From: an uncultured bacterium
Lineage (GTDB): Bacteria; Verrucomicrobiota; Lentisphaeria; Victivallales; UBA1829
DNA length: 33,547 nt
Reading direction: 5' to 3'
Assembly (NCBI GenBank): GCA_949290385.1
Contig: CASERY010000054.1
Coordinates: 1 to 33,547, forward strand
Position numbers and translations under genes: made by a program. Shown in pieces: positions 3,180 through 32,922 of this stretch. The notes under the pieces were generated by a model, which did not search any database, was not told where the DNA came from, and saw only the letters and a program-made list of their open reading frames with translations. Every line of letters starts with the position of its first letter. Position 1 is the first letter of the stretch.

Positions 3180-4361
3180 TTACTTTTTCTAATTGGCAAA
3201 GGATTTGCTGAAGTCATCACCGGCTGTCATATTTTTCCCTTCAGTTTTCTGGAAAGAAGAATGTTCAATCAGTTCCTGAAGTTTTGCCCAGAAAGCATCT
3301 CCATCCAAGGGCAGTTTTACATCGGAATGTGTCAGCGATGAATACAGCATGGCATTCGCCAGTTCCACAGAATTCAATCCTTCTTCGGCGTGGGCAATGA
3401 GTTCTGTCCCGTGAAGAATGGCAGAGGCAAAGTTCTCAAGAATTCCTTTGTGTCCGGGGCCTGGATCCGGCTGCGTGGGGATCGTGACAACCCAGTAGGG
3501 CGGAAATCCGAAAAGAACGTCTGTGTGTTCCCGGAAGTCTGTCGTGGTAATTTCATTCCTCAGGAATTCAATTTTATCGTTTTCCACAACGACGCGTCCG
3601 CGGTCGCAGGTAATTTCAAGACGGTTTGTTCCAGGAGCTTCACCCGTGGAGGTGATGAAAACAGCAGTTTTCCCATCCGGATACTCAAAGAATGCGGTGA
3701 CCTCATCTTCCACTTCAATCCGGTGATATTTTCCAATGGCGCAGTTTGCATGGACCGTGGACGGCATTCCGAAAAGCCATTGAAAAAGGTCGATGTGGTG
3801 CGGACTCTGATTCAGAAGAACACCTCCGCCTTCGCCTTTCCAGGTGGCTCTCCAGGTACCTGAATCGTAATAAGCCTGGCTGCGGAACCAACTGGTGACA
3901 ATCCAGTTGATCCGCATAATTTTGCCGAATGCACCCTGTTGAATCAATTCTCTGAGTTTTATGTAAATCGGGGTAAGGCGCATTTGAAACATAGCGGCAA
4001 AAACACGGTCCGGATGTTCTTTGTGTGCCTGAATCATTTTCAGAACATCATTTTTATGGACTCCCACAGGTTTTTCCGTCAGCACATGAAGATTGTGATT
4101 CAGCGCACTGATTGCTATGGGCGTATGAGAGTAATGCGGAACAGCAATGGTAACAGCCTCAACAAGGCCGGACTTAATCAGTTCATCTGCATCGGTAAAA
4201 TATGGAACTGCATATTGTTTGCCGTATTTTTCCGCGCGTTCGGGAAGAATATCGCAGCAGGCGGCAAGTTCCATTTCGGGGATTTGAGAAATCAGCGAGA
4301 GATGTCCGGATCCCATATTGCCGAGTCCGATAACACCAACTTTAACTTTTTTTTCAGACAT
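3180..4361 (-). CDS. Gfo/Idh/MocA-family oxidoreductase (one in-frame TAG)
   Basis: NAD(P)-dependent sugar or cyclitol dehydrogenase family. The Rossmann motif GLGNMG is at residues 12-17, and the EKP motif with its catalytic-type lysine at 97 is in LTEKPVG. A downstream block GGVLLNQSPHHIDLF holds the conserved Asp/His region. Start choice: ATG at 4361 (MSEKKVKV) is preceded by GAAAGGTTG, while the ATG at 4382 overlaps that ribosome site. Near the end the frame reads Asn-TAG-Lys-Lys-TAA, with TAG at 3189-3191 (codon 391). Ending at TAA gives 393 residues, with a basic C-terminus. Under the standard code the protein would be three residues shorter and just as plausible, so this TAG alone is weak evidence for recoding. 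The substrate is unknown. Confidence 0.93.
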
Positions 4362-4554
4362 AGCAGAACAACCTTTCATCATGGTTTCAAAGTGGAATAT
4401 GACTGAAACATATCATTTTTCCTGTTTTTTGCAATGACATTTTTCTGAAAAGCGAACTTTAGATTCCAGGAAGTACCGGCAATTTCTCAGAGTGACTCCT
4501 GTTTTGTGTATAGTTATCCTTTTTTCAGGAATGGATACGGTCTTCCTTTTCTTG

Positions 4555-4598
4555 AAAAAATCCCCCCTTCATCCCGGTGCCGGGACAAAGGGGGGATC
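4555..4598 (-). terminator. Intrinsic terminator after the isomerase-dehydrogenase pair
   Basis: On the minus strand ATCCCCCCTT and its complement flank an inner GTCCCGG/CCGGGAT hairpin and are followed by six T. It is a strong GC-rich terminator about 30 bases after the TAA stop at 4630-4632. Confidence 0.92.
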
Positions 4599-4629
4599 TA
4601 TTCTATACTGTGGATATTCAGCAAAAGTC

Positions 4630-5721
4630 TTATTTAACTTTTACGGTTTTTCCATGAGCTTCCGCTGACTTGATTTCAAGTTCAATCATGCGGATCGTAT
4701 CACGGGTGCTCTCCGGATTGGATATGACCGGTTTCTTCCCGGCTTTGACACATTTTGCAAAGTAGGCAATTTCATTGAAGTACATGTTTTTGCCTTTTGC
4801 CGGTATTGTTTTCACGGGCTTGTCCAACTGATAGACTGTCAGTCCGTCCGGACCGATTTCAAGGGTGGCTTTTTCAAATACAGCCGCAACATTTACAGAG
4901 AATTTATGTCTGGCCCAGCTACCCTCGGAAGAAACCAGCGGGCCTCCGTCCGGATAGTTGTAATAGGAAATGGAGTCATCAAAACCGCCACTCATGACCT
5001 TGACTCCGTGACAGACAACAGATTCAGGCATGCCCAGCATGAAAATGACAAAGTCAATATCATGCAGATGCAGATCCATGAGGGCGCCTCCGCTGCGTGC
5101 CACATCCCGGAACCAGCCACCGGGACATCCTCCCAGACGTCTCATATCCAGCCTGAGGAGCTTGCCGTATTTCCCGGAATCGTAAGCTTTTTTGATGGCA
5201 TTGAAGGATTCGTCAAAGCGCAGACACTGGGCAATCATCAGAGACTTGCCGGTTTCCTTGCTGACCTGGATCATTCTGTCAGCATCTTTGGAATTCAGTG
5301 CCATCGGTTTTTCACAGATGACGTTAAACCCATCCTTCATGGCACGGATGGCATATTCACAATGGAGATCTGTGGGAAGACAGATGTCAATATAAGCCAG
5401 ATCCGGCTCATTTTTGATGAGTTCTTCGTAACACAGGTATTTGTGGAGACTGTTCACGTCGGTTTTACCGGAATTGCCAATATTAATGGTAATATTGTCG
5501 AGTTCCAGTTTTTTCGGATCAATGTCGCAGAGTGCAACCAGTTCCACATCGGGCTGTTCTGCATACTGGGAAGCATGGCAGTGCCCCATGCCTCCAAAGC
5601 CCAGAATTGCAGCCTTGATTTTTCTGTTTTTCCCAGCAGTCTTTTTTGCCGCCGGAGCTTTTGCCTTTGCTGTCTTGTCTGAACAGACAGTTTTTGCTGC
5701 TTTTACAGCTTTTGCAGTCAT
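4630..5721 (-). CDS. Gfo/Idh/MocA-family oxidoreductase with Lys/Ala-rich N-terminal extension
   Basis: A 363-residue NAD(P)-dependent dehydrogenase-family protein. The nucleotide motif GFGGMGHCH comes only after about 40 residues because an N-terminal tract rich in Lys and Ala (roughly residues 2-34) precedes it. The EKPMAL motif and the Asp/His block GGALMDLHLHDID follow in normal order. The start is supported by GAGGA eight bases before the ATG, so the extension is probably translated. It ends in TAA without any TAG. It starts 18 bases after the isomerase stop, so the two are almost certainly one transcript. Such dehydrogenase-isomerase pairs act on inositols, 3-keto-glycosides or related sugars; the exact substrate is not visible. 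Confidence 0.92.
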   Translation of the reverse strand: MTAKAVKAAKTVCSDKTAKAKAPAAKKTAGKNRKIKAAILGFGGMGHCHASQYAEQPDVELVALCDIDPKKLELDNITINIGNSGKTDVNSLHKYLCYEELIKNEPDLAYIDICLPTDLHCEYAIRAMKDGFNVICEKPMALNSKDADRMIQVSKETGKSLMIAQCLRFDESFNAIKKAYDSGKYGKLLRLDMRRLGGCPGGWFRDVARSGGALMDLHLHDIDFVIFMLGMPESVVCHGVKVMSGGFDDSISYYNYPDGGPLVSSEGSWARHKFSVNVAAVFEKATLEIGPDGLTVYQLDKPVKTIPAKGKNMYFNEIAYFAKCVKAGKKPVISNPESTRDTIRMIELEIKSAEAHGKTVKVK

Positions 5722-5739
5722 GATGCCAGTCCTCTTTTC

Positions 5740-6615
5740 TCAGTAAAGTTTTTCAAGCTGGTATTGCAGGAATGCAATGGCAATTTTAATGTCTCTGGCA
5801 GGATTTTCACCGCATTCGCGTTCAATGGTCAGATAACCGTCGTAACCGTGATCCTTCAGAGCCTTGAGGTACTCTTCCCAGGGAACGAGGCCTTTGCCCA
5901 GCGGAACTTCCTTGAAGCCGGAGGCGCGTGCGGAGATTTCGCGCGCGGAACCATCCAGATTGCGCATGCCGTAAAATCTGGCGGCACTGCCCATGTGGGT
6001 ATTGATGGAATCTTTGGCATGGGTATGGAAAATGTAGTCGGCAAGAGTTTCCACTGCGTAGACGGGATCTTCACAGGAAACACCGCGCAGATTGGCAGGG
6101 TCAAGGTTGACGCCCAGTGCCGGACAGTCAACATCCTGAATGAAGCGTTTCAAGGTATCTGCCAGTTCCGGACCGGTTTCGATGGCGAAACGGAGGCCAA
6201 GGCTCTAAGCGTGCTGAGCGGCTTTGCGTACGGAGGAAACCATGGGTTCGTAGACGGGATCCTGAGGACTGTCCGGAACACAACCGATGTGCGTGGTCAT
6301 AACTGTGACTCCGCCAAGTTTTGCCATGTTGTCCAGCACTTTTTTCGTGACATCAACGCGTTCCTGGCTTTCAGAGGGAACCTGGAAGGATTTTCCGCAG
6401 ATGTCGCCGCAGACGGCTGTGATTTCAAGATTGTTTGCCTGACATGTTTCACGGATCTGTTTGATTTCATCATCTTTGAGTGCGGTGAAATCATATCCGT
6501 GTCCGCCGTGTCCACCGTAAATCTGGACGCCTTGTGCGCCGATTTTAGCTGCTTCCGCGATTCCTTCGAGCAGAGGTTTTCCAAGGAGTTCCGGAATGAC
6601 GCCGATTTTCATCAT
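5740..6615 (-). CDS. Sugar phosphate isomerase/epimerase, AP-endonuclease-2 fold (one in-frame TAG)
   Basis: A TIM-barrel xylose-isomerase-like protein of 291 residues if TAG at 6205-6207 (codon 137) is read as an amino acid. Upstream of it are the N-terminal barrel strands (KIGVIPELL and GAQGVQIYGGHGG). Downstream, in the same frame and with no gap, come RFAIETG with a metal-ligand-type Glu, the HTHAKD motif, and YLTIERECG near the C-terminus. Neither half is a complete barrel. The local reading is AAQHA-TAG-SLGLRFAIETG, where Gln would suit a surface helix just before the strand. AAGGA precedes the ATG at 6615, and the gene ends in TGA. It is the upstream partner of the dehydrogenase that follows. 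Confidence 0.93.
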
Positions 6616-6802
6616 GATAAAAATTCCTTCTGTTTGTGATAGCTTGTTTTATCGTAGAATTTGATCTTATGCGTTTTCTGAATTCAAGAGAATCCATGAC
6701 TTTACTGTACGTCTTTTCCTGTAAATAGCAAAGGTTCTTTTCAAGGAAAATGATAAATAATGAATATTTTCCTCTCGAATCCGGAAGAGTGTTTCTCTGC
6801 GC

Positions 6803-8212: not shown

Positions 8213-8371
8213 GGTTTCTCCGGGATGCTGCAATTTTTCGCGGGGAAGATGGAAAATGAAGACATCCTGATTTTTCTTTTTGTCTTTTTATCTATTTATT
8301 TCATTTGGAGTTGTTCTGCCGCAGATGCGGGTTCCCGATCCTGATGTGATGAATGAACGTTTGCTGTGAAG

Positions 8372-8405
8372 AAAAAACCGTTCTCCGGATGGGGAGAACG
8401 GTTTC
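8372..8405 (-). terminator. Intrinsic terminator after the aminotransferase
   Basis: On the minus strand AACCGTTCTCC pairs with GGAGAACGGTT around a short loop (CCAT) and runs into TTTTTT. It lies about 70 bases after the aminotransferase stop. Confidence 0.92.
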
Positions 8406-8476
8406 CCGTTTTTAATCGTGCAAAATCTAGTCAGCCAGGCTGAAACAACAGATATCAGGAGAATTTTTCCTACAGA

Positions 8477-9670: not shown

Positions 9671-9995
9671 TGTTCGTAAACTCCCGAGTTGATTCAGCCG
9701 CCGGGGAAAGTGCAAGTCTGCGGATGGAGGCAGACTCAATGGGGATTTATCTCTTTTCCCGGGCGCGTTTCTAAAGCGGTTTGCCCATTTCTAAAGTGTA
9801 AAGAATATCTCTTATACTATACCACAATTTCAAAAATACGCAATCCAGCCATGAAATCCGTTTTTTGGGATTTGTATTTTGCAAAGAATGCATTCTATTG
9901 TTTTAACAGAAGAAGAATCAAAATTTGAACCTGTGGAAAACAGAATAGGTACAGCCGCCGCAAAAAAAAGACGGTTTTTGAGGGAGGTGTTTCTT

Positions 9996-12041
9996 ATGGC
10001 AGGAAAAAGACGCATTGGAGCAAGGAAGAACGAGCGTCAGGAAAAACGCTTGAAAAAGTCACGGTATGAGACTGAAGAAGTTCAGACTTCATCCGGGAAA
10101 AAACGTGCGAAAGCGCCCGAGTACACTGGAATCTTCTCTTCAAGTACAGCCGGATTCGGTTTTGTAAAACCTGATGATCCGGATCTTCCGGAATTTTTCA
10201 TCCCGGGTCGCTATGTTTCGAAGGCGATTGACGGGGATAGAGTCCGTTTTCATGAAATCCCGTCCCGCCCTGATTCTGGTGGCAGAGACAAGCGCGATCT
10301 GGGGCCTGTGGGGGCAATCGTGGAGATTCTGGAACATACCCGGAAAAATGTGGTTGCGGAACTTTCCTCCCGTCATGAAGCACGTCCGCTGGACAAACAT
10401 CTGCCGGAGTCTCTTCGTGTCAATTCTGTTCCGAAGGGGGTAAAGCCCGGGGAATGGGTGAAACTCCGTCTGCTGAATGATGGCGGCCGTCATACCGAGA
10501 AGATGACCGGAGAAGTAGTGGAAGCCTATGGAGAAGCCGGAACTCTGATGGCGGATCTGGATGCGGTTTGTGCTGAATACAATCTTCCTGAACCTTACAG
10601 CATGCAGGATAATCAGGAGGCAGAAAAAATTCAGCCGCTTGATATAGAGCGCGAGGACTGCAGAGGGTTCTGCACGGTTACCATTGATCCGGCAGATGCT
10701 CATGATTTTGACGATGCGCTTTCTATTGCTCCCGGTGAAAAACGGGGAGAAGTCATCCTGGGCGTTCATATCTCAGATGTGGCCGCATTTATCAGACCCG
10801 GTTCAAAATTTGATAAAAAGGCTGCTTTCCGCGGTTTTTCTTCCTATATACCCTTCCGTTTTTCACCTATGCTGCCCAAGGCTCTGACGGCGAAAATCAG
10901 TCTGCGAGAGGGAGTGGATTCCTGTGCTCATTCGGTGCTTTTTACCATTCGAAAAAGAGACGGTCATATCGTTTCTTTCCGTCGGGTGCATTCGTTGATT
11001 CATGTATAGAAACGCTTGAATTATGGAGAAGTCCAGTCTTTTATGGACAATCCAAGATCTGCACCGAAAGACTGGTCTGCAGATCTGAAGAAAAGCTTGA
11101 AACTTCTGATCGAAGTTTTTGAAAAAATGCGAGTTCAGCGTTTCAAAACTGAAAAATTCCTGAACCTGGATATCCCTGAAATTCGTGTTTGCTGCGATGA
11201 GGAAAAACAGGAAATTACCGGAATTGAACGCAAAATTCAGGGGCCTTCCGACCAGCTGGTGGAGGAGTGTATGCTTGCGGCCAACAGTGCGGTGGCATCT
11301 GAACTGATTGCCAAAGGAATTGCCGGATTGTTCCGGGTTCATCCGGAACCTGATCCGGAGAAAATAGCTGAGTTCTCCTCTTTGATGGCACAGTCGCTGC
11401 ATTTTCATACAGGCGACATCCTTTCGAGCCGGGATGCCTGCATTCATTTCCTTGAATCGATTCCGGATGATCACAGAAAACCATTGATCCTTTCAAATTT
11501 TCTGCGTTCTCTTCCTCGTGCAGGTTATTCTGTGGATCCTGCAATTCATTACGGACTTGGAAAAGTTCAGTATTCGCATTTTACAAGTCCGATCCGCCGA
11601 TATGCGGATCTTACCGTGCATCAGCAGCTTTGGCAGGCTGATACGAATGGTCGCTTAAGAAGCAAGAAATCGCTGAAGCCCATTGCCGAGGATCTTTCGG
11701 ACAAGGAAGAACGCAATGACAATGCCTATTTTGCCGCAGTGGACCGCCTGAAAATTCATTATCTCAAGCAGCATGGAGCCATGGAAGATGGAACCATGTA
11801 TGAAGGGGTGATTACAAAAATTACTTCCAGTGGTCTTGTTTGTGATATTGCAGAACTGGGACTTTACGGTTTTGTGCCCATGGAAAAAATCCGGGGAGGT
11901 GCGTTCCGACGTACTAAAAGCAAGCATAAAATGAAAGCCTCCAACAGCCATACGGAATACAAGATCGGCGATTTTGTCTATCTTATGCTGGATTCGGTGG
12001 ATACTGTGCGAGGAACTGCCATTTTCCGTCCGGCACTGTAA
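9996..12041 (+). CDS. rnr: Ribonuclease R (one in-frame TAG)
   Basis: Processive 3'-5' exoribonuclease of the RNB/RNase II family, 681 residues if TAG at 11007-11009 (codon 338) is sense. A basic N-terminus leads into an OB/cold-shock region (GFGFVKPDD). Next comes the RNB catalytic block DPADAHDFDDAL near residue 230, whose aspartates bind metal. After the TAG come KRLNYGEVQ, the ECMLAANSAVA helix, HFTSPIRRYADL, and an S1 domain from about residue 600. The TAG lies inside the RNB domain, between IHV and KRLNY, where E. coli RNase R has IHSHARLTY from memory; that position varies in the family. AGGGAGGTG lies six bases before the ATG, and the stop is TAA. Two separate halves would both be inactive. 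Confidence 0.96.
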
Positions 12042-13984: not shown

Positions 13985-15493
13985 ATGGCTTTCTATTACA
14001 ACGAACCGTCCCATACCTTCAGTGAATATCTCCTGGTACCGGGTTATTCCGGTGCGGACTGCATTCCCTCCAAGGTTTCATTGAAAACGCCGGTGGTGAA
14101 GTTCAAGCGGGGCGAGTCATAGCCGCTTACCATGAATATTCCTCTGGTTTCAGCTATTATGCAGGCTGTTTCAGATGACCGTATGGCTGTGGCGCTGGCC
14201 AAAGAGGGTGGTATTTCTTTTATTTATGGGAATCAGACAATTGAAAATCAGGCAGCGATGGTTCGTCGAGTCAAGAATTACAAAGCCGGTTTTGTTCGTT
14301 CTGATTCGAACCTGCGTCCGGATGCTACTCTGACAGATGTGCTGGCTTTGAAGGCAGCCAATGGTCATTCCACGATTGCTGTCACGGATGACGGAACGGC
14401 CAACGGTATTCTGCTTGGACTGATAACAAGCCGCGATTACCGCGTGGACCGTATGGATCTGTCTGCAAAATGCAGAGACTTTATGACACCGATTGAAAAG
14501 CTGATCACGGTTCAGGAGGGAATATCCCTGCAGGATGCTTATGACGTGATCTGGGACCACAAACTTAATTCTCTTCCTGTGATTGACCGGGAAGGTCATT
14601 TTGTGGCTTTTGTGTTCCGGAAAGATTACGATCAGCACAAGGAGAACCCGCTGGAACTGGTGGACAGCAAACACCGTTTTATTGTAGGGGCCGGCATCAA
14701 TACCCGAGATTATGAAAAGCGTGTTCCTGCCCTGGTGGAGGCTGGTGCCGATATTCTGTGCATTGATTCCAGTGAAGGCTTTACTGAATGGCAGAGCCGT
14801 ACGATTGCCTTTATTCGTGAAAAATACGGTGATCGGGTGAAAGTCGGCGCTGGAAATATTGTGGATCGTGACGGATTCCGCTTCCTGGCAGATGCCGGAG
14901 CCGATTTTATCAAGGTCGGAATTGGCGGCGGATCCATTTGCATTACGCGGGAGACCAAGGGAATCGGACGCGGACAGGCTACGGCTGTAATTGATGTGGC
15001 CAAGGCCCGTGATGAATATTTTGAAGAGACGGGTGTTTATGTTCCGATTTGTTCGGACGGCGGCATTGTGCATGATTATCATATTACGCTGGCTCTGGCC
15101 ATGGGTGCGGATTTCTGTATGCTGGGACGCTATTTCTCCAGATTTGATGAAAGTCCCACTAAGAAAGTCATGATAAACGGCAATTTTATGAAGGAATACT
15201 GGGGCGAGGGCAGTGCCAGAGCCAGAAACTGGCAGCGTTATGACCTGGGCGGAAAATAGAAACTTTCCTTTGTGGAAGGTGTTGACAGTTATGTTCCGTA
15301 TGCCGGCCCCATGCATGACAACATCGGCATTACTCTGAATAAAATCCGTTCCACTATGTGCAATTGCGGAGCTCTGTCGATTCCGGAACTCCAGCAGAAG
15401 GCAAAACTGACTTTGGTCAGCAGTGTGTCTCTGGTGGAAGGCGGTGCTCATGATGTGCTTGTAAAAGACAATGTGAATCATCCTCATGGATAA
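13985..15493 (+). CDS. guaB: Inosine-5'-monophosphate dehydrogenase (two in-frame TAGs)
   Basis: Catalyses NAD-dependent oxidation of IMP to XMP, the committed step of GMP synthesis. The reading from ATG 13985 ([17 protein letters not shown]) to TAA is 502 residues, which I recall as the normal length of the Clostridia-like IMPDH subtype it resembles. TAG at 14120-14122 (codon 46) falls between KFKRGES and [17 protein letters not shown] at 15257-15259 (codon 425) falls between YDLGGK and [16 protein letters not shown]. Tandem CBS-type segments lie at about 95-205, and the catalytic cysteine is Cys319 in [16 protein letters not shown] precedes the ATG. Under the standard code the middle piece would lack the N-terminal strand and the C-terminal active-site flap region. 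guaB and purD both carrying TAG argues strongly against pseudogenes. Confidence 0.97.
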
Positions 15494-16178: not shown

Positions 16179-17540
16179 TTATTCATATCTGAGGGCTTCG
16201 ATGGGATCGAGCTTGGATGCTTTCCAGGCAGGATAAAATCCAAACACAATCCCCACAAGAGCCGAAACAAAAAATGCGGCTACAACAATTCCCGGACTGG
16301 CCTGAATCGGCCAATTGGATACATGGTGCACCATGAGTGCCGCCCCGTGCCCCAGAAGAATTCCAATAATTCCGCCGAGGGAACACAACAGAATGGATTC
16401 TGTAAGGAATTGCTGAAGAATATCTCTGGACCGGGCACCTACAGCCATGCGCAGACCAATTTCACGCGTTCGTTCTGTTACCGAAACCAGCATGATGTTC
16501 ATAATGCCTACACCGCCTACAACCAGAGAAATCAGAGCAACAGCCAGAAGCAGATTGCTCATCTACTAGGAAGTGCCGCTGAGCATTTTTCCGAGTTCTT
16601 CAGGGTTTCGGATTCTGAAATCATTTTCTGCATCCTCTGCCAGATGATGGCGTTCCCGGAGGAGCTGTTCCACTTCGGTTTCCGCCTGATTGATGAGGGA
16701 TGGCGAAACGGCGGAGACCATAATCTGATCCACATGAGTGAATCGAGGCATCAGGAGTGTATCGGTTTCCAGATTTTCATCCTGTTCCGGGTAAAAGGCA
16801 ACGCCTTCAGCCGGATAGAGGTCGGACGGAGACGTGCTGGGCGTACTGGTGGTATCAGTAGCGGTTCCTGTTTTGAGCCCGGTAATGCGCAACCGGATCG
16901 TTGTCCAGGGAGCAATGACGATATCATCTTCGTCCATACCCATCATGTTGGCACCTTTTTTCTCGAGAACGCCAACAACGGTGAAGGAAACCGACCCCAG
17001 GCGAATAATGGAATCAATGGGAGATTCCCCATTGAAAACTTCTCTTACGATGGTTTGACCTACAAGACATACTCTTGAACGGTTTTCCACATCTCTTTCC
17101 GTCAGGGTGCGGCCTTCACTGACATTCCAGTTTCGGATGGTCAGATAGTCCGGCGTACTTCCGACAATGGAACGCGGAATCCAGTTTGTGTTCCCGTAAA
17201 TTAACTGAAGACTGGAGGAGCTGACAATAGGCGTGGCATACGCCACATTGGGACACTCTCGGATAATGGCACTGCAATCTTCCGGTGTCAGACTCATGGC
17301 ACTTCCCTGAGCCTGGGAGACCCTTCCGGGCTGCCGCGGTGCACCCGGCATAATAACCAGGGTATTGACTCCGAGGCTTTCCAGAGATTCCTAAATGTTG
17401 GCTGCGGAACCGCGTCCGATTTCCATCATTGTAATCACTGCGGCGATGCCGATTACAATGCCAAGTGTTGTGAGAAGAGAGCGTGTGATATTCCGGCGAA
17501 GTGCACGGAATGCTCCTATGAGAGAACTGCGGAATGTCAT
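16179..17540 (-). CDS. MacB-like ABC transporter permease (three in-frame TAGs, two adjacent)
   Basis: Inner-membrane permease of the MacB/FtsX type, 453 residues from ATG 17540 to TAA. The N-terminal FtsX-like start (ALRRNITRSLLTTLGIVIG) is followed by the periplasmic MacB_PCD domain, then GGVGIMNIMLVSVTERTREI and the last membrane segments. TAG at 17391-17393 (codon 50) lies in NI-TAG-ESLESLG; from memory MacB proteins have V/I-Q-E/Q-x-I-x-S-L-G there. TAG-TAG at 16566-16568 and 16563-16565 (codons 325-326) follow LSGTS and precede MSNLLLAVALISL; MacB proteins commonly have TSQTLT-like sequence here. Gln fits the first and third-listed contexts well. The start overlaps the ATPase stop as ATGA. 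Split at TAG, none of the three pieces would form a permease. Confidence 0.95.
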
Positions 17541-18256: not shown

Positions 18257-19557
18257 TTTTTAGGTCCTTTGTTGCGGCTGGGCGGTTGCGGAAGGAAGGG
18301 ATTGGTTGCAGACTGGCTTTCATTGTCAGACTGGTTGGCAAGAGTGACAATGCTGCTGCCTGTGATAATTTGCATGCCTTCCTGAAGACCGCCGCTGAGG
18401 ATTTCTGTATTAACCCCGTCATTGAGGCCGGTAACGACAGAAACCGGTTTGGGAACACCGTTTTCCAGCACCCAGACAAGGCGCTCGTTTTCTTTCAAGT
18501 CAATGGAATCGGAATGGATGCCGGATTCCATCGGAGGGTTAAAACGAAGTGCTGCATTGGGGACATACAGAACACCGGAACGGCTGTCCAGAATGAATTT
18601 TACGTTGGCTGTGAGATAAGGCAGCAGAAGATTGTCTGAGTTGTCTGTATAAATTTCAACCACATAGGTTACCACGTTCTGAGACATCGTGGCATTCAGA
18701 CGAATTTTCTGAACAGTTCCATCAAAAGTCCTGCCTGGATAGGCATCAACTGTAAAGATAACCTTCTGCCCTTCCTTGATGGATCCGATATCTGCCTCGT
18801 TGACAGAAACCCATACTTCCATGCGTTTCAGATCTTTTGCCAGGAGAAAAAGACTGGGGGCGCTCATGCTGGCATTCACTGTCTGACCAATACTGACTCG
18901 GCGGTCAATGACAACCCCGTCCACGGGTGATGTTATCACACAGTATCCAAGATTACGTTCACATTTTTCCAGGGAAGCCTGTGCAGATGCAAGCTGGGCT
19001 TGTGCTTCAAAGAGTTTTGCTTGATTGATTGCATGAGAGGCTTTTGCAGATTCAAAAGTTGCTTTTGCACTGTCATATTCGCTTCTTGCCATAATGCCCT
19101 GCGGATAGAGTTGCTGCGCTCTGTCCCAGTCGGCAGTGGCAAGGTCCAGACTGGCCTGACTTTGAAGAAGTGTCGCCTGTGCATTGGCTATGGCTGCTTC
19201 TGCCTGCTGCTTTGAAGCCTTTGCAATATTGACTTCCGCCTGGTACAGGTCATCATCAATATAGGCTAGGACCGCCCCTTCCTTGACCTGGGAACGGTAA
19301 TTGACTTCCTGATTGTTTTCATCGAGTCCGAAACTTGTGATCATTCCGCCAACCTGGGCACCAACATTGACCAGTTCTTCCGGTTCGAGTGTTCCCGTGG
19401 CACTGATTGTGCTGAACAGGTCCCCTTTTTCTGCTGTTTGGGTTTTGTAAATGATTTGTGTGGTTGCCGCAAAGAAGTGACGATAAATCCAAATGCCTAC
19501 AGCAATCAGCACGGCAATGACAGCAATCAGCACAATCCAGCTGAATATCTTTTTCAT
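18253..19557 (-). CDS. MacA-like periplasmic adaptor (membrane fusion protein)
   Basis: A 434-residue RND/HlyD-type adaptor linking an inner-membrane MacB-type transporter to an outer-membrane channel. There is a single N-terminal membrane anchor (about residues 4-26). Then come a lipoyl/barrel-sandwich half (SATGTLEPEELVNVGAQVGG), a long alpha-hairpin rich in Ala, Gln and Ser (about 110-200), the second lipoyl half (VITSPVDGVVIDRRVSIG), and a beta-barrel/membrane-proximal domain. The end is proline- and lysine-rich. AAGGAG lies upstream of the ATG, and the stop is TGA overlapping the ATPase start. It is the first gene of the operon. No outer-membrane TolC gene is in the window. Confidence 0.94.
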   Translation of the reverse strand: MKKIFSWIVLIAVIAVLIAVGIWIYRHFFAATTQIIYKTQTAEKGDLFSTISATGTLEPEELVNVGAQVGGMITSFGLDENNQEVNYRSQVKEGAVLAYIDDDLYQAEVNIAKASKQQAEAAIANAQATLLQSQASLDLATADWDRAQQLYPQGIMARSEYDSAKATFESAKASHAINQAKLFEAQAQLASAQASLEKCERNLGYCVITSPVDGVVIDRRVSIGQTVNASMSAPSLFLLAKDLKRMEVWVSVNEADIGSIKEGQKVIFTVDAYPGRTFDGTVQKIRLNATMSQNVVTYVVEIYTDNSDNLLLPYLTANVKFILDSRSGVLYVPNAALRFNPPMESGIHSDSIDLKENERLVWVLENGVPKPVSVVTGLNDGVNTEILSGGLQEGMQIITGSSIVTLANQSDNESQSATNPFLPQPPSRNKGPKK

Positions 19558-20190
19558 AAGAAATATTTTCTCCTTGTTTTTCTAGGGTTCGGACATGAAG
19601 ATTCAAAAGTTATTTTTTAATATTTATTAGGAAATTCATATAATATAACGCATAATTTCTTTTTTTTATTGCCGTAAGAAGAAAAAATCCTGTTTTTTTT
19701 ATGCAAAACGGCATTTGCATTTATAATCCTTTTGAGCGGGGAACGGTCCAGGCATGATGGGGATCCCTGTGAGGGAAAGGCGGTGAAAGTGAGATTGTAT
19801 ACGGACAAATGCTTTTCCCCTGTCGGAATGGGAAGGATTTTTGTCTTTTTGCCATTGGAAAAGTTTGGAAAAGGACGGAAAGGGATTTATATTACAAGGC
19901 CGTCCAGAGCCTGTTTGAGATGGAGTTGGTCGAAATGGATCCGAACAGAATCAGGATGGGGTCGGCACCGTATTTTGCAATTTTTACCCGATCTTTTCGG
20001 AGAGCGTGTAGAGAGTCTCTGGAAAGGCCTTTTCAAGGCGGAAGATTTACACGGTGCAGAGATATTCCTGCAGGAACTGCCGCTTCGCTGAAGAGGACGG
20101 AACGCGGTGGCAGTTATCGGCGGATTTTACGGAAAAAGTCATCATTACCAACAGATATGACAATAGCATGAAAACCGGAGGTTTTATTCC
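19558..20190. other. Intergenic region upstream of purD with a possible decayed ORF
   Basis: Three plus-strand frames each carry a protein-like stretch in turn: DLYYKAVQSLFEMELVEMD (from about 19884), then LFGERVESLWKGLFKAEDL (about 20000-20055), then RFAEEDGTRWQLSADFTEK (about 20080-20140). The last frame runs to a TGA at 20192-20194 that overlaps the purD ATG and contains a TAG at 20009-20011. This could be a small gene with frameshifts, or chance. The region also has to hold the divergent promoters of macA and purD. I make no functional call. Confidence 0.25.
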
Positions 20191-21477
20191 ATGATGGATG
20201 TACTGGTAGTCGGCAGCGGAGGAAGAGAACACGCGCTTTGCTGGGGATTGAAACGCAGCCCCGGAATCGGAAAACTGTATTGTGTCCCGGGAAATCCCGG
20301 TATTGCGCAGATTGCTGAAACGGCTCCCATTCCGGTTGAAAGTCTGGATGCAATTGCTGCTTTTGCTGAAGAAAAGAAAGTCGGCCTTGTTGTCGTAGGT
20401 CCGGAAGTGCCGCTTTGCCTGGGACTTGCTGATGTGATTCGAGCTCGGGGAATTCCGGTTTTCGGACCATCCAAAGAAGGGGCGAAACTTGAGGGAAGCA
20501 AAGATTTTTCCAAGAAGTTCATGGATACTTATGGTATTCCGACGGCCCGGTATGGATCTTTTGATAATGAAAAGGATGCAGTTGCCTATATCCGCAATGA
20601 ATATGCCGCAGGACGCGCTGTTGTGGTAAAAGCTGACGGCCTTGCCGCTGGAAAAGGTGTAGTTGTAGCTGAAAGTGAAGCGGATGCTGTCAGAGCTGTG
20701 AAAGAATGTTTTGCAGGAGCTTTCGGTTCCGCAGGCATGAGAGTTGTGGTGGAGGAACTGCTGATCGGTGAAGAGGCATCAATTCTGGCTTTAACAGATG
20801 GAAAAACCGTGGTGCCGCTGGTCAGTTCTCAAGATCACAAGCGGCTGCTGGATGGCGATAAAGGACCCAATACCGGAGGAATGGGGGCGTATTCTCCGGC
20901 TCCGGTTGTAACCGATGCGGTTATGGAGGAGATCCATTAGAAGATTCTGATTCCGTTCCTGAACGGGGTTAAAAAGGAAGGATTTGACTATCGCGGTCTG
21001 ATTTATGCCGGCATCATGGTTACAGACAAAGGATGTCGTGTTCTGGAATTTAATGTGCGGTTTGGAGATCCGGAAACAGAAGCGGTGATTCCCCGTTTGG
21101 ACAGCAGTCTGCTGGATGTCCTCCTGAAAACCGCGGAAGGTCGGCTTTCTGAAGCTGAATTAAAATGGAATCCCGATCCGTGTGTCTGCATTGTGATGGC
21201 CTCCGCAGGATATCCGGCTGGACCTGTACAGGGTGGTTTTCCGATTGCCGGTATTGAGGATGCTGAAAAAGCGGGCGCTCTGGTGTTTCATGCGGGGACC
21301 GCGCTGAATGACGGAGGCGTTTTGGTGAACAAAGGCGGACGGTGCCTGGTTGTGGCTGAAACGGGTAAAACGATGGAGGAGAGCATTCGCAGAGCTTATG
21401 AAGCTGTGCACAAGATTCATTGGAAGGGTGTTCAATATCGTTTGGATATTGCAAAGAGAGCGATCCATCGTCCGTAA
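20191..21477 (+). CDS. purD: Phosphoribosylamine--glycine ligase, GARS (one in-frame TAG)
   Basis: ATP-grasp enzyme making glycinamide ribonucleotide in purine synthesis, 428 residues if TAG at 20938-20940 (codon 250) is sense. Before it are [11 protein letters not shown] at the N-terminus, the ATP-grasp lysine region [15 protein letters not shown], and [14 protein letters not shown]. After it, in frame, are [28 protein letters not shown] with the metal-ligand Glu/Asn, and the C-terminal domain. The TAG lies in VMEEIH-TAG-KILIPFL, a surface helix that varies between species. GGAGG lies nine bases before the ATG, and the stop is TAA. The TAG falls between ATP-grasp subdomains, so either half alone would be inactive. 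Confidence 0.97.
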
Positions 21478-22346: not shown

Positions 22347-23711
22347 GTGGTCCGGATCTTCAAAAATATTTTTTTATGGCTTGCCGGGCATTTCCTGGCA
22401 ATTGCAGTGGTCACGCTGTTAATCCTTTCCATTGGTCCTCTTGTGCACTATGTGAAAAGCTCGGAGAATCAGGAGGCTTCCCTGAAGGAGGACTGCTTGA
22501 AATGGACAAAACGTATAGAATATAAAACAAAAGAACTTTCCAATATGCGCCGGCTTCTGTGGATGAAACAACGGGATATTCTGCAGAAGGAAGTGGAACT
22601 GGATCAAATCGGAACTGGAGATTATATTTTTCACCCTGTTGATACCACATCCAGGGCTGCCAGACTGAAAATGGAGATAAAGGCTGAGCGTCTTGCCTAT
22701 ACTGCGCTGATCCGATCCAGAGAGAAGACCGAAAAGGAATTGAAAGATGCACGGGCGCAGTTGAAGCGTGCTGAACTTGAACTTGCAGAAACTCTGGAGC
22801 CTGTGAAACTGCGTTAGCTGGAGGAATGGAATGCACGCGGATTACCAACTCTTTTATGGGTCGCTGCTCTGTTCCTGCTGGTTCCGATTTTATGGCCTGT
22901 GGTGATTTATTTTATTTTGATGCCGGTTTTTGAAAGATTCCCGCCTGTGAAGATTTCGTGCTTTGATGGAAATAGCAGCATAAGCTGTGTTTCTGCTGGA
23001 TCGGATCAGCGGAATGTGCAGGTGCATCTTGCCGAAGGAGAGAAGATTTTTGTCCGGACCCGGGAAGGGGACTGGTGCAAGGTGCGTCATGGTCTGAGGG
23101 CCAGATCCAGAATTTTGTGGAAATGGTCGGCTCCGCTGGTGTCGATGGCATCCAATCTGGCTGTGCTGAATGTTTACACGCCGGAAAAGGGACGCAGAGA
23201 AGGATATCTGGAATTGACAAGTCCCAATGAGGATGAATATATTTTGCATTTGGAAATGAATGACTTGAATGGAATTGTTCTTCGTCCGAAATATGTGGTT
23301 GCATTAAGCAGCGGTATTTCTGTAAGAACACATTGGAGTTTCAATGTGCACAATCTTTTTTCGGGACGCATCCGGCAGATTATCTATTACGGGAAGGGAT
23401 CTGTTTTCATCCGGGGCGGGAATGGGCTTGATCTGAGAATGCTGGAGAATTCAGGCTCCGATGCCGTGTTCAAGGTCGAGGATGGGGCGTTAATCGGCTA
23501 TGCCGTGAGTGCTCATTATTCTCTCTGCAGAACAGAGACGTTTCTTCCGTATCTGCTGCACCGGACATCCTTGACGGACTACCGTCTTCAGCATGGCCTT
23601 TTCATTACCCAGAATCAAGAGCCGAAAGCAGACCGGAAAAAATAGAATTCTCTGCTGGAGAAAGCCTTTGGGATCCTGCTGAACGGCATTGGAAAACTTC
23701 TGGGGTTTTGA
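22347..23711 (+). CDS. Two-membrane-segment protein with a beta-rich C-terminal domain (two in-frame TAGs)
   Basis: A 454-residue protein if TAG at 22815-22817 (codon 157) and 23643-23645 (codon 433) are sense. It starts at GTG with GGAAAGG upstream. A membrane segment lies at about residues 8-30 and a charged coiled-coil region at about 35-155. The first TAG follows LEPVKLR and leads into LEEWNARGLPTLLW. A second membrane segment (about 167-190, VAALFLLVPILWPVVIYFIL) comes next, then a beta-rich domain (about 200-400). The second TAG follows QEPKADRKK and leads into a short amphipathic tail, NSLLEKAFGILLNGIGKLL, and TGA. The beta domain loosely recalls AIM24/TspB-type folds (SGRIRQIIYYGKGSVFI), but I am not sure. 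The function is unknown. The join at the first TAG puts the coiled coil and second membrane helix in one protein, which is sensible architecture. Confidence 0.8.
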
Positions 23712-26040: not shown

Positions 26041-26089
26041 AAAATCCTGTCTGAGTCATTGCGTTGGTTATGATTCAGACAGGATTTTT
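26041..26089. terminator. Bidirectional-type intrinsic terminator
   Basis: AAAATCCTGTCTGA and TCAGACAGGATTTT form a perfect 14-bp stem around a loop of about 20 bases, with T on the plus side and A on the other. It lies about 145 bases after pepF and ends a region (25896-26040) without a gene. Confidence 0.85.
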
Positions 26090-26430
26090 GTTTTTTCAGC
26101 CTCAGATGCTCCTTCTTTTTGTGTTCCTCACCTTATTTCAAAAAAGACTGGAGCACTCAGTATCTGGAGACGCATATGGATATGGAAATTGCCTTTTACT
26201 GCAATGTCGCTTGAATAGGCCTGCTTTTGATGATCCGGAATTCCAGGGGTCGGTTGGCATTTATTTTTAGAGCAACCAAATAGTGTACTGATCGTTTAAG
26301 AACGGGATTTTACCTGTGGGCTTGTGGTAATTCCCGTTTGAGAAAATTTATTCATGCCAGTTTTTTCTTCAGTACAGATCTTTTCCCATGGAAATTGATT
26401 GTATCTGCTTGAGATGTATTAAAAAATAAA

Positions 26431-26530
26431 AGCAGTCTTTTCCTGTTTGTATGATGGCGCTGTCTGCCAGGGACACTTTTCTTCCAGAGTGATTTCATAG
26501 CAGTCCTTTCCTGTTTGGATGATGGTGTTC
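26431..26530. repeat. Imperfect direct repeat, period 68
   Basis: AGCAGTCTTTTCCTGTTTGT at 26431-26450 recurs as AGCAGTCCTTTCCTGTTTGG from 26499, and each copy is followed by ATGATGG. The matching stretch is about 27 bases with few differences. It lies in a gene-free region (26090-26546). Function unknown. Confidence 0.5.
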
Positions 26531-26546
26531 CTGCATGCAAAAATAA

Positions 26547-26580
26547 AAACCGCATCCATTGCTGAAAAATGAATGCGGCT
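26547..26580 (-). terminator. Intrinsic terminator after jag
   Basis: On the minus strand CCGCATTCATT pairs with AATGGATGCGG (one mismatch) and runs into TTTTTATTTTT. It lies about 70 bases after the jag TAA, ending the rpmH-to-jag cluster. It is far from the internal TAG, so it supports a continuous jag gene. Confidence 0.85.
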
Positions 26581-26647
26581 GAATAGAATACTTGTACTAT
26601 TTGCGTTTATACTTCCATTCTCAGGAAAGAGAAAGAGGGATGCACGC

Positions 26648-27466
26648 TTATTTTTTCAGAGCAATAACCACGCTTTTACGACTTCCTTCTCCAGTACTTT
26701 CTGTCGTGAGATCCGCTTCTTTTTCCAGCGTGATATGGACAATCCTGCGGTCATGAGCATTCATTTCCGGCAGAGTTACAGGTTCTCCCCAGCGGCGGAC
26801 TTCCTTGGCTGCGTCAATGGCCTGCTGTCTGAGCACTGCTTCATGCGGATTGGATTCGCCTGCTTCACTGCTGCCTCTGCTGTTCCTGCGTCCTCCGCCG
26901 CGACGGGATTCGCGCGGTTCAGAAGAAGAGGTGCGCTTGCGGCTTTCAGGACGTTTGGAAGAATATCCATCAATATCAATGTAGACTTTGGGGAAGTCCG
27001 GATCATTTTTCTGCATCATGCGGTTAAGCAGAAGTTGCAGGGCTTCCAGGGACTGGCCTTTGCGGCCAATAATGCGACCGGTTTCTTCACTGGCGACCAG
27101 CAGATTGATTTTGGAGCTGCGTCCTTCCTATTTAACTGCTGCATCCAGGCCCAGGTAATCGAACATTGTGGCCAGCGTTCTGGAAGAGACGTCCAGCATT
27201 TCCTGAGTGACAGTGACCTGTGGACGGACTGTTTTTTCCGGGGTGTCTTCTTCGTCTCCCTGAACAGAAAGACTTTCCTGGCTCTCTGTTTCCTGAAGGG
27301 GTTCTTCGGATGTGATTTTTTCTTCAGTCTTCGGGGCTGCCTGTTCGGAGGAGCAGCAGTCTGCGGAGACTTTCTGATCGAGGTTCTCTGCTCCGTCCTG
27401 AACAGCCGCCTGCTGAGATGCCTGAAGTTTTTCGGCGTCGTTCGGGACCAGTTTTTCGTTTTCCAT
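26648..27466 (-). CDS. jag: Jag/KhpB-type RNA-binding protein (one in-frame TAG)
   Basis: Single-stranded nucleic-acid-binding protein of the Jag family, always near yidC. It is 272 residues if TAG at 27128-27130 (codon 113) is sense. The N-terminal ~95 residues are acidic and Gln/Glu-rich, followed by LATMFDYLGLDAAVK, then the TAG, then EGRSSKINLLV and the KH core with GRIIGRKGQS. A basic Arg/Ser linker (SRRGGGRRNSRGSSE) and a C-terminal R3H-type domain (MNAHDRRIVHITLEKE) complete it. The TAG is at the start of the KH domain, so termination there would leave no RNA-binding part. GGGAG precedes the ATG, the stop is TAA, and the gene lies 28 bases after yidC. Confidence 0.93.
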
Positions 27467-27494
27467 TGTTTTCTCCCAACGTTTTCAATTTGGA

Positions 27495-29303: not shown

Positions 29304-29354
29304 GGAAAGAAAACCTTCATGTTTAGAGTGAGTCGTTGAACAAATTCAGTTTTT

Positions 29355-29606
29355 TTACTTCTTTTTCTTGTTTCTGGGTTCTGGAACTGGATCATATCCG
29401 CCTTTGGAAAAGGGATTGCACCGGAGGATACGCCAGACAGCCAGAACGATTCCTTTCAGAACGCCATGTTTCAAAATCGCTTCTGCTGCATATGCCGAAC
29501 AAGTCGGGGTATATTTGCAACAGGGGGGAAGCCAGGGGGATATTGCCTTTTTATAAAACCAGATGGGCAGAAGAAACAGAGATTTTAATGTCAGAGAAAA
29601 TTTCAA
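29355..29606 (-). CDS. yidD: Membrane protein insertion efficiency factor YidD
   Basis: Small membrane-associated protein found between rnpA and yidC. The core [20 protein letters not shown], then SAYAAEA and [15 protein letters not shown], is diagnostic. The frame is open upstream to ATG 29759, which would add 51 residues with no family counterpart and overlap rnpA deeply. I prefer TTG 29606, which overlaps the rnpA stop as TTGA and gives 83 residues, close to the usual length. That start lacks a good ribosome site and would rely on coupling. Stop TAA, no TAG. The tail is Lys-rich. Confidence 0.85.
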
Positions 29607-30082
29607 ATCCGGGAAGGATTCAGATGATGCATCCGGAGCAGGATCGTTTCCAGCTGAGTTTTGACTTCGTTCATGCCTGCAGTGTATATGCCGCGTCTTG
29701 GAATAACGATGATCCGGCATGGTAGGATCCTTGCTTTTAGAAGTCTGAACGATTCCCAAATGATTCGTCTTGCCCGGTTTCTTACGACGGCCCGCTTATG
29801 GAATCTGCGGCTGCATATGACTCCGCACTGCACCGCGGACATGGCAAGGCCCGACTGCTGAGAGTCTGCCGGCAGAAGCAGAAGTGTAAAATAACGGCAG
29901 GTCTGACGTTTACCCCGGTTTTTTACTTCATCAAAATCCTTTTTGTTTTTCAACTTATCGGATTCCCGCAGGGAAAACTCTCTGCGCTTTCTTCTGCTTC
30001 CATGCGCCGTCTGAAGACTCTTGCCGGCTGCCGTTGTGTTCATGTTCAAGGCGGATTCCGGAGAGTCCATATTGTCTGTCAT
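29603..30082 (-). CDS. rnpA: Ribonuclease P protein component
   Basis: Protein subunit of RNase P that helps mature tRNA 5' ends. The core starts at [20 protein letters not shown] and carries the RNR signature in [13 protein letters not shown]. The ATG at 30082 lies one base after the rpmH stop and gives 159 residues with a ~35-residue Ser/Thr/basic extension; ATG 30070 and 30043 are alternatives. The frame also stays open upstream inside rpmH to 30166, recalling the rpmH/rnpA overlap known in Thermus, but a start there is not needed. Stop TGA, no TAG. Confidence 0.92.
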
Positions 30083-30083
30083 A

Positions 30084-30221
30084 TCAGAGATTGACCAGAT
30101 GCTTGCGGCCTTTAGCTCTGCGTCTTGCCAGGACCTTGCGGCCGCCTTTTGTTGCCATTCTTGCACGGAACCCGAGTTTGCGGGCGCGGGAGATAACGGA
30201 GGGATGGTAGGTAGTTTTCAT
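30084..30221 (-). CDS. rpmH: 50S ribosomal protein L34
   Basis: A 45-residue ribosomal protein reading [20 protein letters not shown] and continuing with the conserved [19 protein letters not shown]. Length and sequence are typical of bL34. AAAGGAAAGG lies just upstream of the ATG. It is the first gene of the rpmH-rnpA-yidD-yidC-jag cluster. The stop is TGA. It is a useful coding check: a highly expressed gene without TAG. Confidence 0.97.
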
Positions 30222-30237
30222 GTTTAGCCTTTCCTTT

Positions 30238-30266
30238 CGGCGGAAACTTAACTGCTGGTTCCGCCG
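30238..30266 (-). promoter_or_regulatory. Hairpin in the rpmH leader
   Basis: CGGCGGAA pairs perfectly with TTCCGCCG around 13 bases, ending a few bases before the rpmH ribosome site (AAAGGAAAGG). There is no T run. It could affect translation or stability of the L34 mRNA; that is inference from position only. Confidence 0.5.
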
Positions 30267-30741
30267 GGGTTCACCAGTTATTTTAGATTGTTTTTATTTC
30301 AGTAAGGTAAAAACAGATGCCATAAAATAACGCTGGAAATCTTTTCTTCAAGCGAAAAATTGATTTTTTTCAAGAATAATATTTAAAAAAGGCTTTTTCA
30401 GGCTGTCCCTGTTTGAGCGTTTAAAACATGCTGTATTGCAGGGGATTAAGAAGTCGGATGACTGTCTTTTTTTCGGCATATCGCAGCTGGCTGTTTTTTA
30501 TAGGAAGACGGATGATTGATTTTATTTCAGACGACTGAAATTCTTGAAATCTGTTGTTTTTCATGTAGAATAACGCATAGAACAGAAGAATAAATAGCTG
30601 GAAGTTGGAAGAAGGCCGGCAGCGGCTGGTTTATCCGTTTAATGGAATAGTAAAACGGGAAGATTCTTCCTGTTCCAGAATTCAGTTGTTCTGTTATCCA
30701 TAGAATCATAGAATTACAGAGAAACAGAAAAGGAACCTTAT
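30267..30741. other. Divergent intergenic region between rpmH and the glycosidase-like gene
   Basis: AT-rich with no gene. It should contain promoters for both directions. One near-match to a DnaA box (TTATCCATA at about 30693) is present, but there is no cluster, so I do not call an origin. AAAGGAA lies about seven bases before the plus-strand ATG. Confidence 0.4.
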
Positions 30742-32922
30742 ATGGCTCGCAAAATCAAGCTCCCGAAAGAAGGCATCTTTGTCGGATCCGGGGTTTATCC
30801 GACCGATACAGACACACTTTTATGTACGATGATTGGACATTATACGTGGCAGGCGCAGTCTTTCGGCCCGATTGAAATTCTGGATAAAATTGTGGAAGAT
30901 AATCAGGGAAATCTTGCCCAGGTATGGGGCATAGCCCGCGGTTTTTCTCCCAAAAACCGTTCCGAATGGTTTTATGCACTGGATGAAATTGGCATTGACA
31001 TTCCGGCCCCGGACTGGGAAAATTATAAAAATCTGGTTGTTGAAGAATATCAGACGGTTTTTGATGAACATAAAGACCGTTTTGGGGCAGGGTATGTGCG
31101 TTTTATTCGTGAGGCAAGGAAGCGGGGAATTTATACGGCGTTGATTTACACCAATTCCAATCCGCAGTGGATACCTCAGCTTTCGGAAGTCGGTGGAGAT
31201 TATTATCTCGGGTACGACTTCGGGGAACGGTATAATATCGGACTGGATGATGCCCGTAGCATTCTCAAGGAAATGGGTACATTGAAACTGGGTGCCCTGG
31301 CGGACCGTCTCTTGAAACGAGTCCGTGAACATGTGAATGAGCGCCACCAGCAGGGGTGGGGCTTTGTGATGGCCACCAGCAGCAATTTCCATCTGGATTA
31401 CGAGGTTCTTGGCGGGGCCGAGATGCCTGTTGTTGAGGATTTTGCTTTTCCGAGTCTGAATTTTGCCTCGGCTTTTTCGCGTGGGCTTTACCGACAGCAT
31501 GATCTGCCTTTATGGGGGTCGCATCTGGCGCATGAGCATTATTCCTGGCTGCCGAACAGCAATTCGCATCGGTGGGATCAGCTTCGTGCGGGTATGTATC
31601 TGAAATATATGGCCGGATCTAAAATGATCATCAATGAATCTGGCAACTGGTTTGTGGAACATACGCTGGCTCCGGATTCCCCGAAATTTGAAGTCCCGCA
31701 GACAACACGCAAAGCCTTTGGTGTGATTGGCTGGGGAGCTGCGCATGAAATCATGAAAACGAATCCAGCTGCGCTTAAACCCTATCTTGAAGAAGCCCGT
31801 CCGTACTTCGGGATGCTGAATTACGATTCTCCTGTGTGCCGGAAGTACCGGGAGATTATTTCAGACTTCTGGGACTTTGTAAAAGCCAATGGCACACCGG
31901 AAGGCCAGCCGGAAACAACCATTGCCCTGGTGAAAGGCAATTATGATTTCTGCTCGAGCCGTTACAATCACAATTATGCCATTGGCGGACTGGGAGATAT
32001 TGCAGAAGAGAATCCGTCCTGGTATGAAGATACTCCGGAACGCGGCTGGGTGATTGCAAATGAAGTTTTTTTCCCGTTGAAACCTGTGATGGCGCCTTAT
32101 AAGAATCTGAGTATTTCCGGGACGCCGTTCGGTCAGGTTGACGTGGTAAGTTTTGCGAAAGACCATATTACTGCGGAATTTCTGAACAAGCATTATAAAG
32201 CGATTCTGTTTACGGGCTGGAATACGTGTTCGGAAAAACAGTACGGAATTCTCAAGGAATATGTCTATAACGGAGGAACACTCTTCATTTCGACTCCGCA
32301 GCTCAGCACAAATGAAACAAGGAACTTTGCGTACAATGCGGATGAACTTGTCAATGGCGGTGATTTCAGTGAATTATGCGGCGTTAAAGTTCTTGGCAAA
32401 GGTGATCGCTTTTACTGGGCAACGGCTCCGATCGGGGAGGAGAAACTATTCAAGTTCCCCCGGCGCTTTGGCATTATAGCTTCGCGGATTGCGAATGTTG
32501 AAATCACAGATCCAGAACTTGAGGTTCTAGCCATCGACGACGAAATTGAACGTCCTCTGATAGTACATCATCGTTACGGAAAAGGACACACCTATTTTCT
32601 GAATTCCTGGGCGTATCCTGGAGCCTTTGAGTAGGATGACGGCCCCGGAGGCACTCTTGACAGCGCCGGCATGATCGGTCTTCTCTATCGGTATATTGCC
32701 AATCAGAACCGTGGACACGTCTATATCACGGATGACACCTCTGAACCTGGCAATGAGTGTGGATATATTGCATTTTCCTATTTCCCAGAAGCCGGAAAAA
32801 CATGTCTCCTCAATATTGACTTTGAGCACGAACACACTTTCTATCTGCATCGTTTTGCGTTCATCGAAAAAGTTACTCTTGCCCCGGGTGAATTCAGAAT
32901 GCTGGATACAACAAAAGGCTAA
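30742..32922 (+). CDS. Large glycoside-hydrolase-like protein (one in-frame TAG)
   Basis: A 726-residue protein if TAG at 32632-32634 (codon 631) is sense. The N-terminal ~350 residues look like a TIM-barrel hydrolase (IREARKRGIYTALIYTNSNP, then MIINESGNWFVEHTL with a possible acid/nucleophile Glu). A GATase-like alpha/beta domain lies at about 480-560 (KAILFTGWNTCSEKQYGILK), as in some beta-galactosidase families. The frame then runs through HHRYGKGHTYFLNSWAYPG, AFE, the TAG and DDGPGGTLDSAGMIGLLYRY to a beta-rich end (KVTLAPGEFRML) and TAA. The C-terminal beta domain is lost if TAG stops translation. There is no signal peptide, so it appears cytoplasmic. The GH family and substrate are unassigned. 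Confidence 0.85.

Follow-up and report, generated by a model that had tools for sequence, protein, structure and literature searches.

Apparent genome-wide read-through of UAG in an uncultured Victivallales bacterium, with glutamine as the best-supported residue

The window studied here is the whole stretch of DNA that was analysed, 33,547 nucleotides, and it is the entire contig 54 of a draft genome (G000; 2.68 Mb in 168 contigs, 78.5% complete and 2% contaminated) of an uncultured Victivallales bacterium. A first-pass annotation of this DNA had proposed that the stop codon UAG is used as a sense codon. In this study, we found that in-frame TAG occurs inside conserved genes throughout G000 and that UAG is almost absent from gene ends. 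We suggest that the cell probably translates UAG as an amino acid, with glutamine the most likely choice, and that release factor 1 (RF1) had probably been lost before; we consider this explanation about as likely as not.

A sample of 864,063 bases of G000 (848,270 of them not N) was codon-aligned to open frames of relatives, mainly the sister genome G008 (1.09 Mb). Alignments required an identity of at least 40% and a match at 3 or more of 10 flanking residues, and each codon was given one vote. Inside these alignments, 46 TAG were found in 58,674 codons, compared to 2 TAA and 3 TGA. Four of the five places with TAA or TGA were overlain by another open frame of at least 150 residues, and the fifth (L013) was without such an explanation. 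In the reverse control, 1 TAG and 5 TGA were found in 54,447 codons of G008; all six came from a single alignment, in which the query frame is antisense to one that by eye resembles ribosomal protein L3. Of the 35 G000 stretches in which 600 or more codons were aligned (counting overlapping alignments), 20 contained TAG. The protein families gave the same picture. TAG was carried by 3 of 42 ABC_tran matches in G000 and TAA or TGA by none, whereas no stop of any kind was seen in the matches of G008 (0 of 32) and G016 (0 of 27). When ACR_tran was compared across 36 family genomes, three G000 genes among the matches listed had 1, 6 and 3 TAG, and all other matches listed had together 1 TAG, 2 TAA and 1 TGA; a fourth ACR_tran match of G000 lies outside the matches listed. 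Two acrB-like genes (L215:11116-14265 and L287:82-3207) had 6 and 3 TAGs in frames without TAA or TGA, some of them at conserved Gly/Ala columns. In-frame TAG was also found in prfB, rpoC (codon 1013 of the frame), alaS, mreB, carB, pyrG and a frame named recN-like by eye, and in none of the 8 GTP_EFTU matches of G000. These results strongly argue that UAG, and UAG specifically, is read through genome-wide, and in this they support the first-pass view against read-through of single genes.

We then compared gene ends, using 161 genes whose alignment reached to no more than 12 residues from the end of a relative. The first stop at these ends in G000 was TAA in 93, TGA in 65 and TAG in 3. Each of the three TAG-first ends was followed by TAA or TGA, 3, 7 and 11 codons later; in two of them this later stop lay no more than one codon from where the relative ends, and the third was ambiguous. 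The same 161 ends in the relatives comprised 72 TAA, 88 TGA and 1 TAG. It had been proposed that many genes ending in TAG would speak against recoding, and no such abundance was seen among the 161 aligned ends of G000. The counts strongly suggest that UAG does not act as a clear terminator in this genome. In the relatives (L154-L211 of G008 and further reference loci), genes hardly ever end in UAG although RF1 is present.

In the window, all 13 in-frame TAGs reported earlier were found again, in nine genes whose frames each reach TAA or TGA. The genes are listed below, followed by two further TAGs that were left out of the 13 as lying near doubtful gene starts.

3180..4382, minus strand: Gfo/Idh/MocA-type dehydrogenase; TAG 3189-3191 stands at codon 398 of 400, with TAA three codons further on, a weak case
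5740..6615, minus strand: xylose-isomerase-like TIM-barrel protein; TAG 6205-6207 is codon 137, within PF01261 (residues 19-284)
9879..12041, plus strand: RNase R family exoribonuclease; TAG 11007-11009 is codon 377, within the RNB domain
13985..15493, plus strand: IMP dehydrogenase; TAG 14120-14122 (codon 46) and TAG 15257-15259 (codon 425), both within the IMPDH domain
16179..17540, minus strand: MacB-like ABC permease; TAG 17391-17393 (codon 50), TAG 16566-16568 (codon 325) and TAG 16563-16565 (codon 326)
20191..21477, plus strand: purD, phosphoribosylamine-glycine ligase; TAG 20938-20940 is codon 250, within GARS_A
22347..23711, plus strand: AIM24-domain protein; TAG 22815-22817 (codon 157) and TAG 23643-23645 (codon 433), one on each side of the domain
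26648..27466, minus strand: Jag/KhpB-like RNA-binding protein; TAG 27128-27130 is codon 113, within the KH domain, with R3H downstream
30742..32922, plus strand: 726-aa protein with no Pfam or NCBIfam match; TAG 32632-32634 is codon 631
2024..2026, minus strand: uncounted TAG upstream of the likely gltX start (1981)
19582..19584, minus strand: uncounted TAG, codon 5 of a frame with an alternative downstream start at 19557

Eight of the nine genes extend well beyond their TAGs. In the dehydrogenase, the TAG could be a former stop since it stands only three codons before TAA, and it says little about recoding. Family motifs had been claimed on both sides of the TAGs in the recognisable genes. 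A Pfam domain spans at least one TAG in six genes (AP_endonuc_2, RNB, IMPDH with two TAGs, MacB_PCD, GARS_A and KH). The absence of TAA and TGA from inside these frames is partly built in, because the frames were cut at TAA and TGA. A fair judgement therefore calls for homology that continues past the TAG and for comparison with a control genome. The chance given for 13 of 13 TAG, near one in 1.6 million, is arithmetically correct ((1/3)^13 = 6.3e-7). The window DNA is not phage, as it carries cellular genes (purine synthesis, RNase R, ABC transport and similar). Among 80 IMP dehydrogenase loci taken from named genomes, the top three (83-84% identity) are labelled Lentisphaeria/Lentisphaerae and the next several Clostridia, many from sheep, deer or rumen samples; two MacB-like relatives carry the label Victivallales. 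These labels are our grounds for regarding the host as a relative of the Lentisphaeria. One IMP dehydrogenase, P0001, has 594 aa with an internally repeated catalytic region.

The residue for which UAG may stand was examined in the aligned columns. With the best-scoring reference taken at each site, the residues opposite the 46 TAGs were Ala 9, Gln 7, Lys 6, Ser 5, Gly 3, Glu 3, Arg, Asp, Thr and Asn 2 each, and Ile, Pro, Met, Leu and Phe one each. The reference codon at all 7 Gln sites was CAG. When the sites were scored for a single residue, Gln was best (Ser -9.9, Lys -12.7 nats), and 2,000 bootstraps over genes gave Gln 1,414, Ser 349, Lys 129 and Ala 104. A deeper scoring covered 55 sites in 39 genes, with columns from window genes, acrB and solved-structure relatives, and was corrected for residue abundance. 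Gln won 3,750 of 5,000 bootstraps in this scoring, 4,369 of 5,000 without one acrB gene and 4,783 of 5,000 without any acrB. Calibration on real sense codons of the same genes (9 residues, 16 columns each) called each residue correctly in 300 of 300 trials. Two uncorrected scorings had favoured Ala because residue abundance was not divided out, and they were repeated with the correction.

Columns in conserved enzymes were consistent with this result. Ten solved-structure searches were run, of which two were unused, and seven of the remaining eight gave the TAG column; for rpoC, no solved-structure alignment spanned its TAG. The seven columns, from the sister where aligned and the solved relatives listed, held R/Q, D/Q/R/N, N/E/D, Q/K, N/Q, E/A and R/K. 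Gln was thus present at four of the seven (alaS, mreB, prfB and carB) in the sister or in solved relatives among the matches listed. In the window, codon 377 of RNase R is opposite Lys in the sister and Arg/Lys in solved-structure relatives, and codon 250 of purD is opposite Asn/Glu/Asp in such relatives. Codon 46 of IMP dehydrogenase is mostly Pro in relatives, and codon 425 is Ala/Lys/Ser/Gln. In the MacB-like permease, codon 50 is Gln in the two closest relatives, and codons 325 and 326 form tandem TAGs. These results lend fair support to Gln as the best-supported single residue and the principal reading of UAG.

At codon 631 of the 726-aa protein, Gln was the commonest residue (31 of 116) and was found in the two closest full-length relatives. 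A relative with 85% identity, P0123, ends at codon 631, and the cluster representative P0121, whose sequence differs from that of the window, has the same end; of the members of these clusters, the comparison covered P0121 and P0123. The best matches within the family were in G008 and G016, which belong to one genus. This protein has many metagenome relatives, one of which (P0161) carries Pfam PF08532, a glycoside hydrolase 42 domain.

We compared TAG sites with the sites of ordinary codons. Each of the 61 sense codons matched its own residue in 45-87% of columns, whereas the best match of TAG was 20% (Ala, 9 of 46). The mean log-odds per deep column was negative at TAG for every residue tabulated, compared to +1.2 to +1.9 for nine real sense residues. 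TAG occurred 1.41 times per 1,000 codons in the least conserved genes and 0.40 and 0.47 times in the two most conserved bins, and its sites also showed lower flank identity. The first-pass description of UAG as an ordinary sense codon was therefore not supported, since TAG is depleted from conserved genes and sites. The choice of sites is suggestive of slow or ambiguous reading of UAG.

Release factors and tRNAs were searched in the G000 assembly. Release factor 2 (RF2) is encoded by prfB (523 bits), which carries an in-frame TAG together with the usual RF2 motifs SPF and GGQ. No match to prfA, the gene for RF1, exceeded the cut-off in the assembly, and at E <=0.001 only prfB and a short GGQ protein were found. 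This short protein (L002:1177-1755, 193 aa) resembles a ribosome-rescue hydrolase. Across the order, prfA exceeded the cut-off in 123 of 137 genomes; among the 14 below it, G001 is a near-miss at 416 bits. Another genome of the order without a match over the cut-off, G104, is 92% complete and 8% contaminated. Gene order was also compared. In G008, prfA lies in a glnN-prfA-msbA-like arrangement (names by eye), whereas the glnN relative of G000 precedes a purF-like gene in another gene order, so that synteny says nothing on loss. The absence of prfA expected by the first-pass annotation was thus observed, in an assembly of 78.5% completeness, and we consider a loss of RF1 in this lineage to have fair support.

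The assembly gave 46 tRNA hits, including tRNA-Gln with anticodons CTG and TTG; a partial sequence that closes contig 154 was assigned by eye to tRNA-Glu. When the RF00005 threshold was lowered to E <=10, 47 hits were obtained and the only new one scored 13.7 bits. Several candidates for a tRNA with anticodon CUA were rejected. A pattern search gave four places, none of them a CUA tRNA; the candidate on contig 164 was tRNA-like but did not fold as a tRNA. A low-threshold ARAGORN scan allowing introns gave many weak, mostly intron-bearing candidates, which were taken as noise. An altered tRNA-Gln was also set aside, the CTG gene of G000 being nearly identical to that of G008 with an anticodon stem that is ordinary by eye. 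The base before CCA is A in both tRNA-Gln genes of G000 and G in tRNA-Gln(CTG) of G008 (L033, L036, L206), which may bear on charging. Four of the 28 tRNA types in the G008 sample were missing from G000, so one missing tRNA type would be expected there. The gene for transfer-messenger RNA (tmRNA) is present in G000.

These observations could be explained as follows. In the relatives UAG had all but disappeared from gene ends (1 of 161), so that RF1 could have been lost at little cost. After the loss, ribosomes would read UAG slowly, mainly with a glutamine tRNA, and such slow or partly ambiguous reading would keep TAG rare and away from conserved positions. The reader may be a CUA tRNA whose gene falls in the fifth of the genome that is missing, or it may be tRNA-Gln acting as a near-cognate reader. 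Several observations weigh against this explanation. Nine of 25 further genomes from the order with 69-80% completeness likewise have no prfA match over the cut-off, so the missing match counts for little by itself and RF1 may be unassembled. The CUA tRNA anticipated by the first-pass annotation was not found among the 46 tRNA hits, by pattern search or in the sampled DNA of this 78.5% complete assembly. The reference residue was Gln at 7 of 46 TAG sites (15%), compared to 869 of 1,575 CAG (55%) and 85 of 189 CAA sites (45%) (TAG vs CAG, Fisher p 7e-8). Across 13 deep columns there was not one residue that occurred in all, and Gln was unseen in 6, a fraction that is usually 11% for Gln codons. 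Ala took 917 of 5,000 bootstraps across all sites in the deeper scoring, with acrB columns in its favour. Slow or ambiguous reading was deduced from site choice alone, and CAA likewise declines in conserved genes, so that avoidance of rare codons explains part of the TAG depletion.

More specific and competing explanations were weighed against the same data. It is possible, and we put it forward tentatively, that RF1 was lost with no dedicated UAG tRNA, leaving an ambiguous codon that is read mainly as Gln by near-cognate tRNAs and tolerated at indifferent sites, a natural counterpart of recoded Escherichia coli in the middle of reassignment. We consider it rather unlikely that UAG is a clean glutamine codon, efficiently read by a dedicated tRNA-Gln(CUA) encoded in the unassembled fifth. 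Gln was the best single residue in the scorings, the tRNA types already missing from G000 would accommodate one more, and phages use UAG as Gln with suppressor tRNAs (PMC9523058 and PMC10879173); yet CAG to TAG would then be a silent change, and the low share of Gln at TAG and the negative log-odds stand against it. It is unlikely that UAG stands for another single amino acid (Ala, Ser or Lys) through a missing cognate tRNA, with Gln common in relatives only because CAG to TAG is the commonest mutation. Ala is the commonest reference residue and is favoured by acrB, and it has no single-step silent route to TAG, which would explain TAG at tolerant sites. However, Gln fits better than Ala, Ser or Lys once abundance is corrected for, and in the seven conserved-enzyme columns (solved relatives among the matches listed, and the sister) Ser was unseen, Ala was seen once, in one CTP synthase, and Lys in two.

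An improbable alternative is that RF1 is present but unassembled, with many UAGs translated by a natural amber suppressor and others used by RF1 for termination. The assembly is incomplete, prfA is often missing at such completeness, and frequent stop read-through in bacteria has been proposed (PMC7918605); but TAG lies in the essential genes rpoC, prfB and alaS, clear TAG-ended genes were not seen at the aligned ends, and the assembly yielded no suppressor tRNA. Decay, sequencing error or contamination, which might be expected in an assembly of many fragments, is highly improbable and as a main cause already refuted: TAG is affected almost alone, it is carried by 20 of 35 well-aligned stretches, and P0121 and P0123 share the end at codon 631 despite their sequence differences. 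UAG serves as a pyrrolysine codon in some bacteria. That it does so in G000 is scarcely credible, as the best match to PylS there was 20.2 bits against a cut-off of 178.15 and the assembly yielded no CUA tRNA.

The case resembles several known systems. Gut phages, crAss-like ones among them, use a UAG=Gln code (NCBI table 15) in which internal UAG likewise occurs in essential genes, genes end in UAA or UGA, and Gln fits best. The present case differs from these phages in that UAG occurs here in a bacterial chromosome, no suppressor tRNA was found in the assembly, and the UAG sites are unlike Gln sites. In the UGA reassignments of Mycoplasma (Trp) and Absconditabacteria/Gracilibacteria (Gly) (consulted parts of PMC8629427), a stop also becomes sense and the matching release factor is expected to be lost; here the codon is UAG and the factor RF1, leaving RF2 with UAA and UGA. 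In recoded E. coli with RF1 deleted, near-cognate tRNAs (Gln, Tyr, Asp, Val) decode the unassigned UAG, and frameshifting and rescue by tmRNA also occur (PMC6207430). Similarly, no RF1 was found in the G000 assembly, tmRNA is present, and UAG would be read by near-cognate tRNAs. The difference is that the state here is natural and that UAG is spread through genes instead of removed from the genome. By this analogy, the lineage is likely a natural relative of the RF1-deleted state. The pyrrolysine code shares the reading of UAG as an amino acid and differs in that G000 has no PylS match over the cut-off.

The earlier statement that known bacterial stop reassignments mostly involve UGA agrees with the literature. 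A 2021 screen of more than 250,000 genomes (PMC8629427) reported, in the parts consulted, validated bacterial changes in UGA and arginine codons only and UGA as the known bacterial stop change; the same parts mention 290 bacterial stop codons with an inferred residue and give no breakdown by codon. Consulted parts of PMC13092985 likewise concern bacterial UGA and arginine-codon changes and not UAG. PMC8318568 concerns code expansion in Deltaproteobacteria, and phage use of UAG as Gln is the subject of PMC9523058, PMC10607447 and PMC10879173. Among the papers listed by the literature searches, none was seen on a bacterial chromosome that uses UAG generally as a sense codon.

If true, this would be a natural alteration of the genetic code of a kind unusual in bacteria. 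It also has a practical side, since standard gene finding would fail in G000 about once in every 1,300 aligned codons. The near-disuse of UAG as a stop in the relatives is what codon capture requires, and a TAG found mostly at tolerant sites is what would be expected of a codon passing through an unassigned or ambiguous stage. The lineage would thus provide a test of how a change of the genetic code begins.

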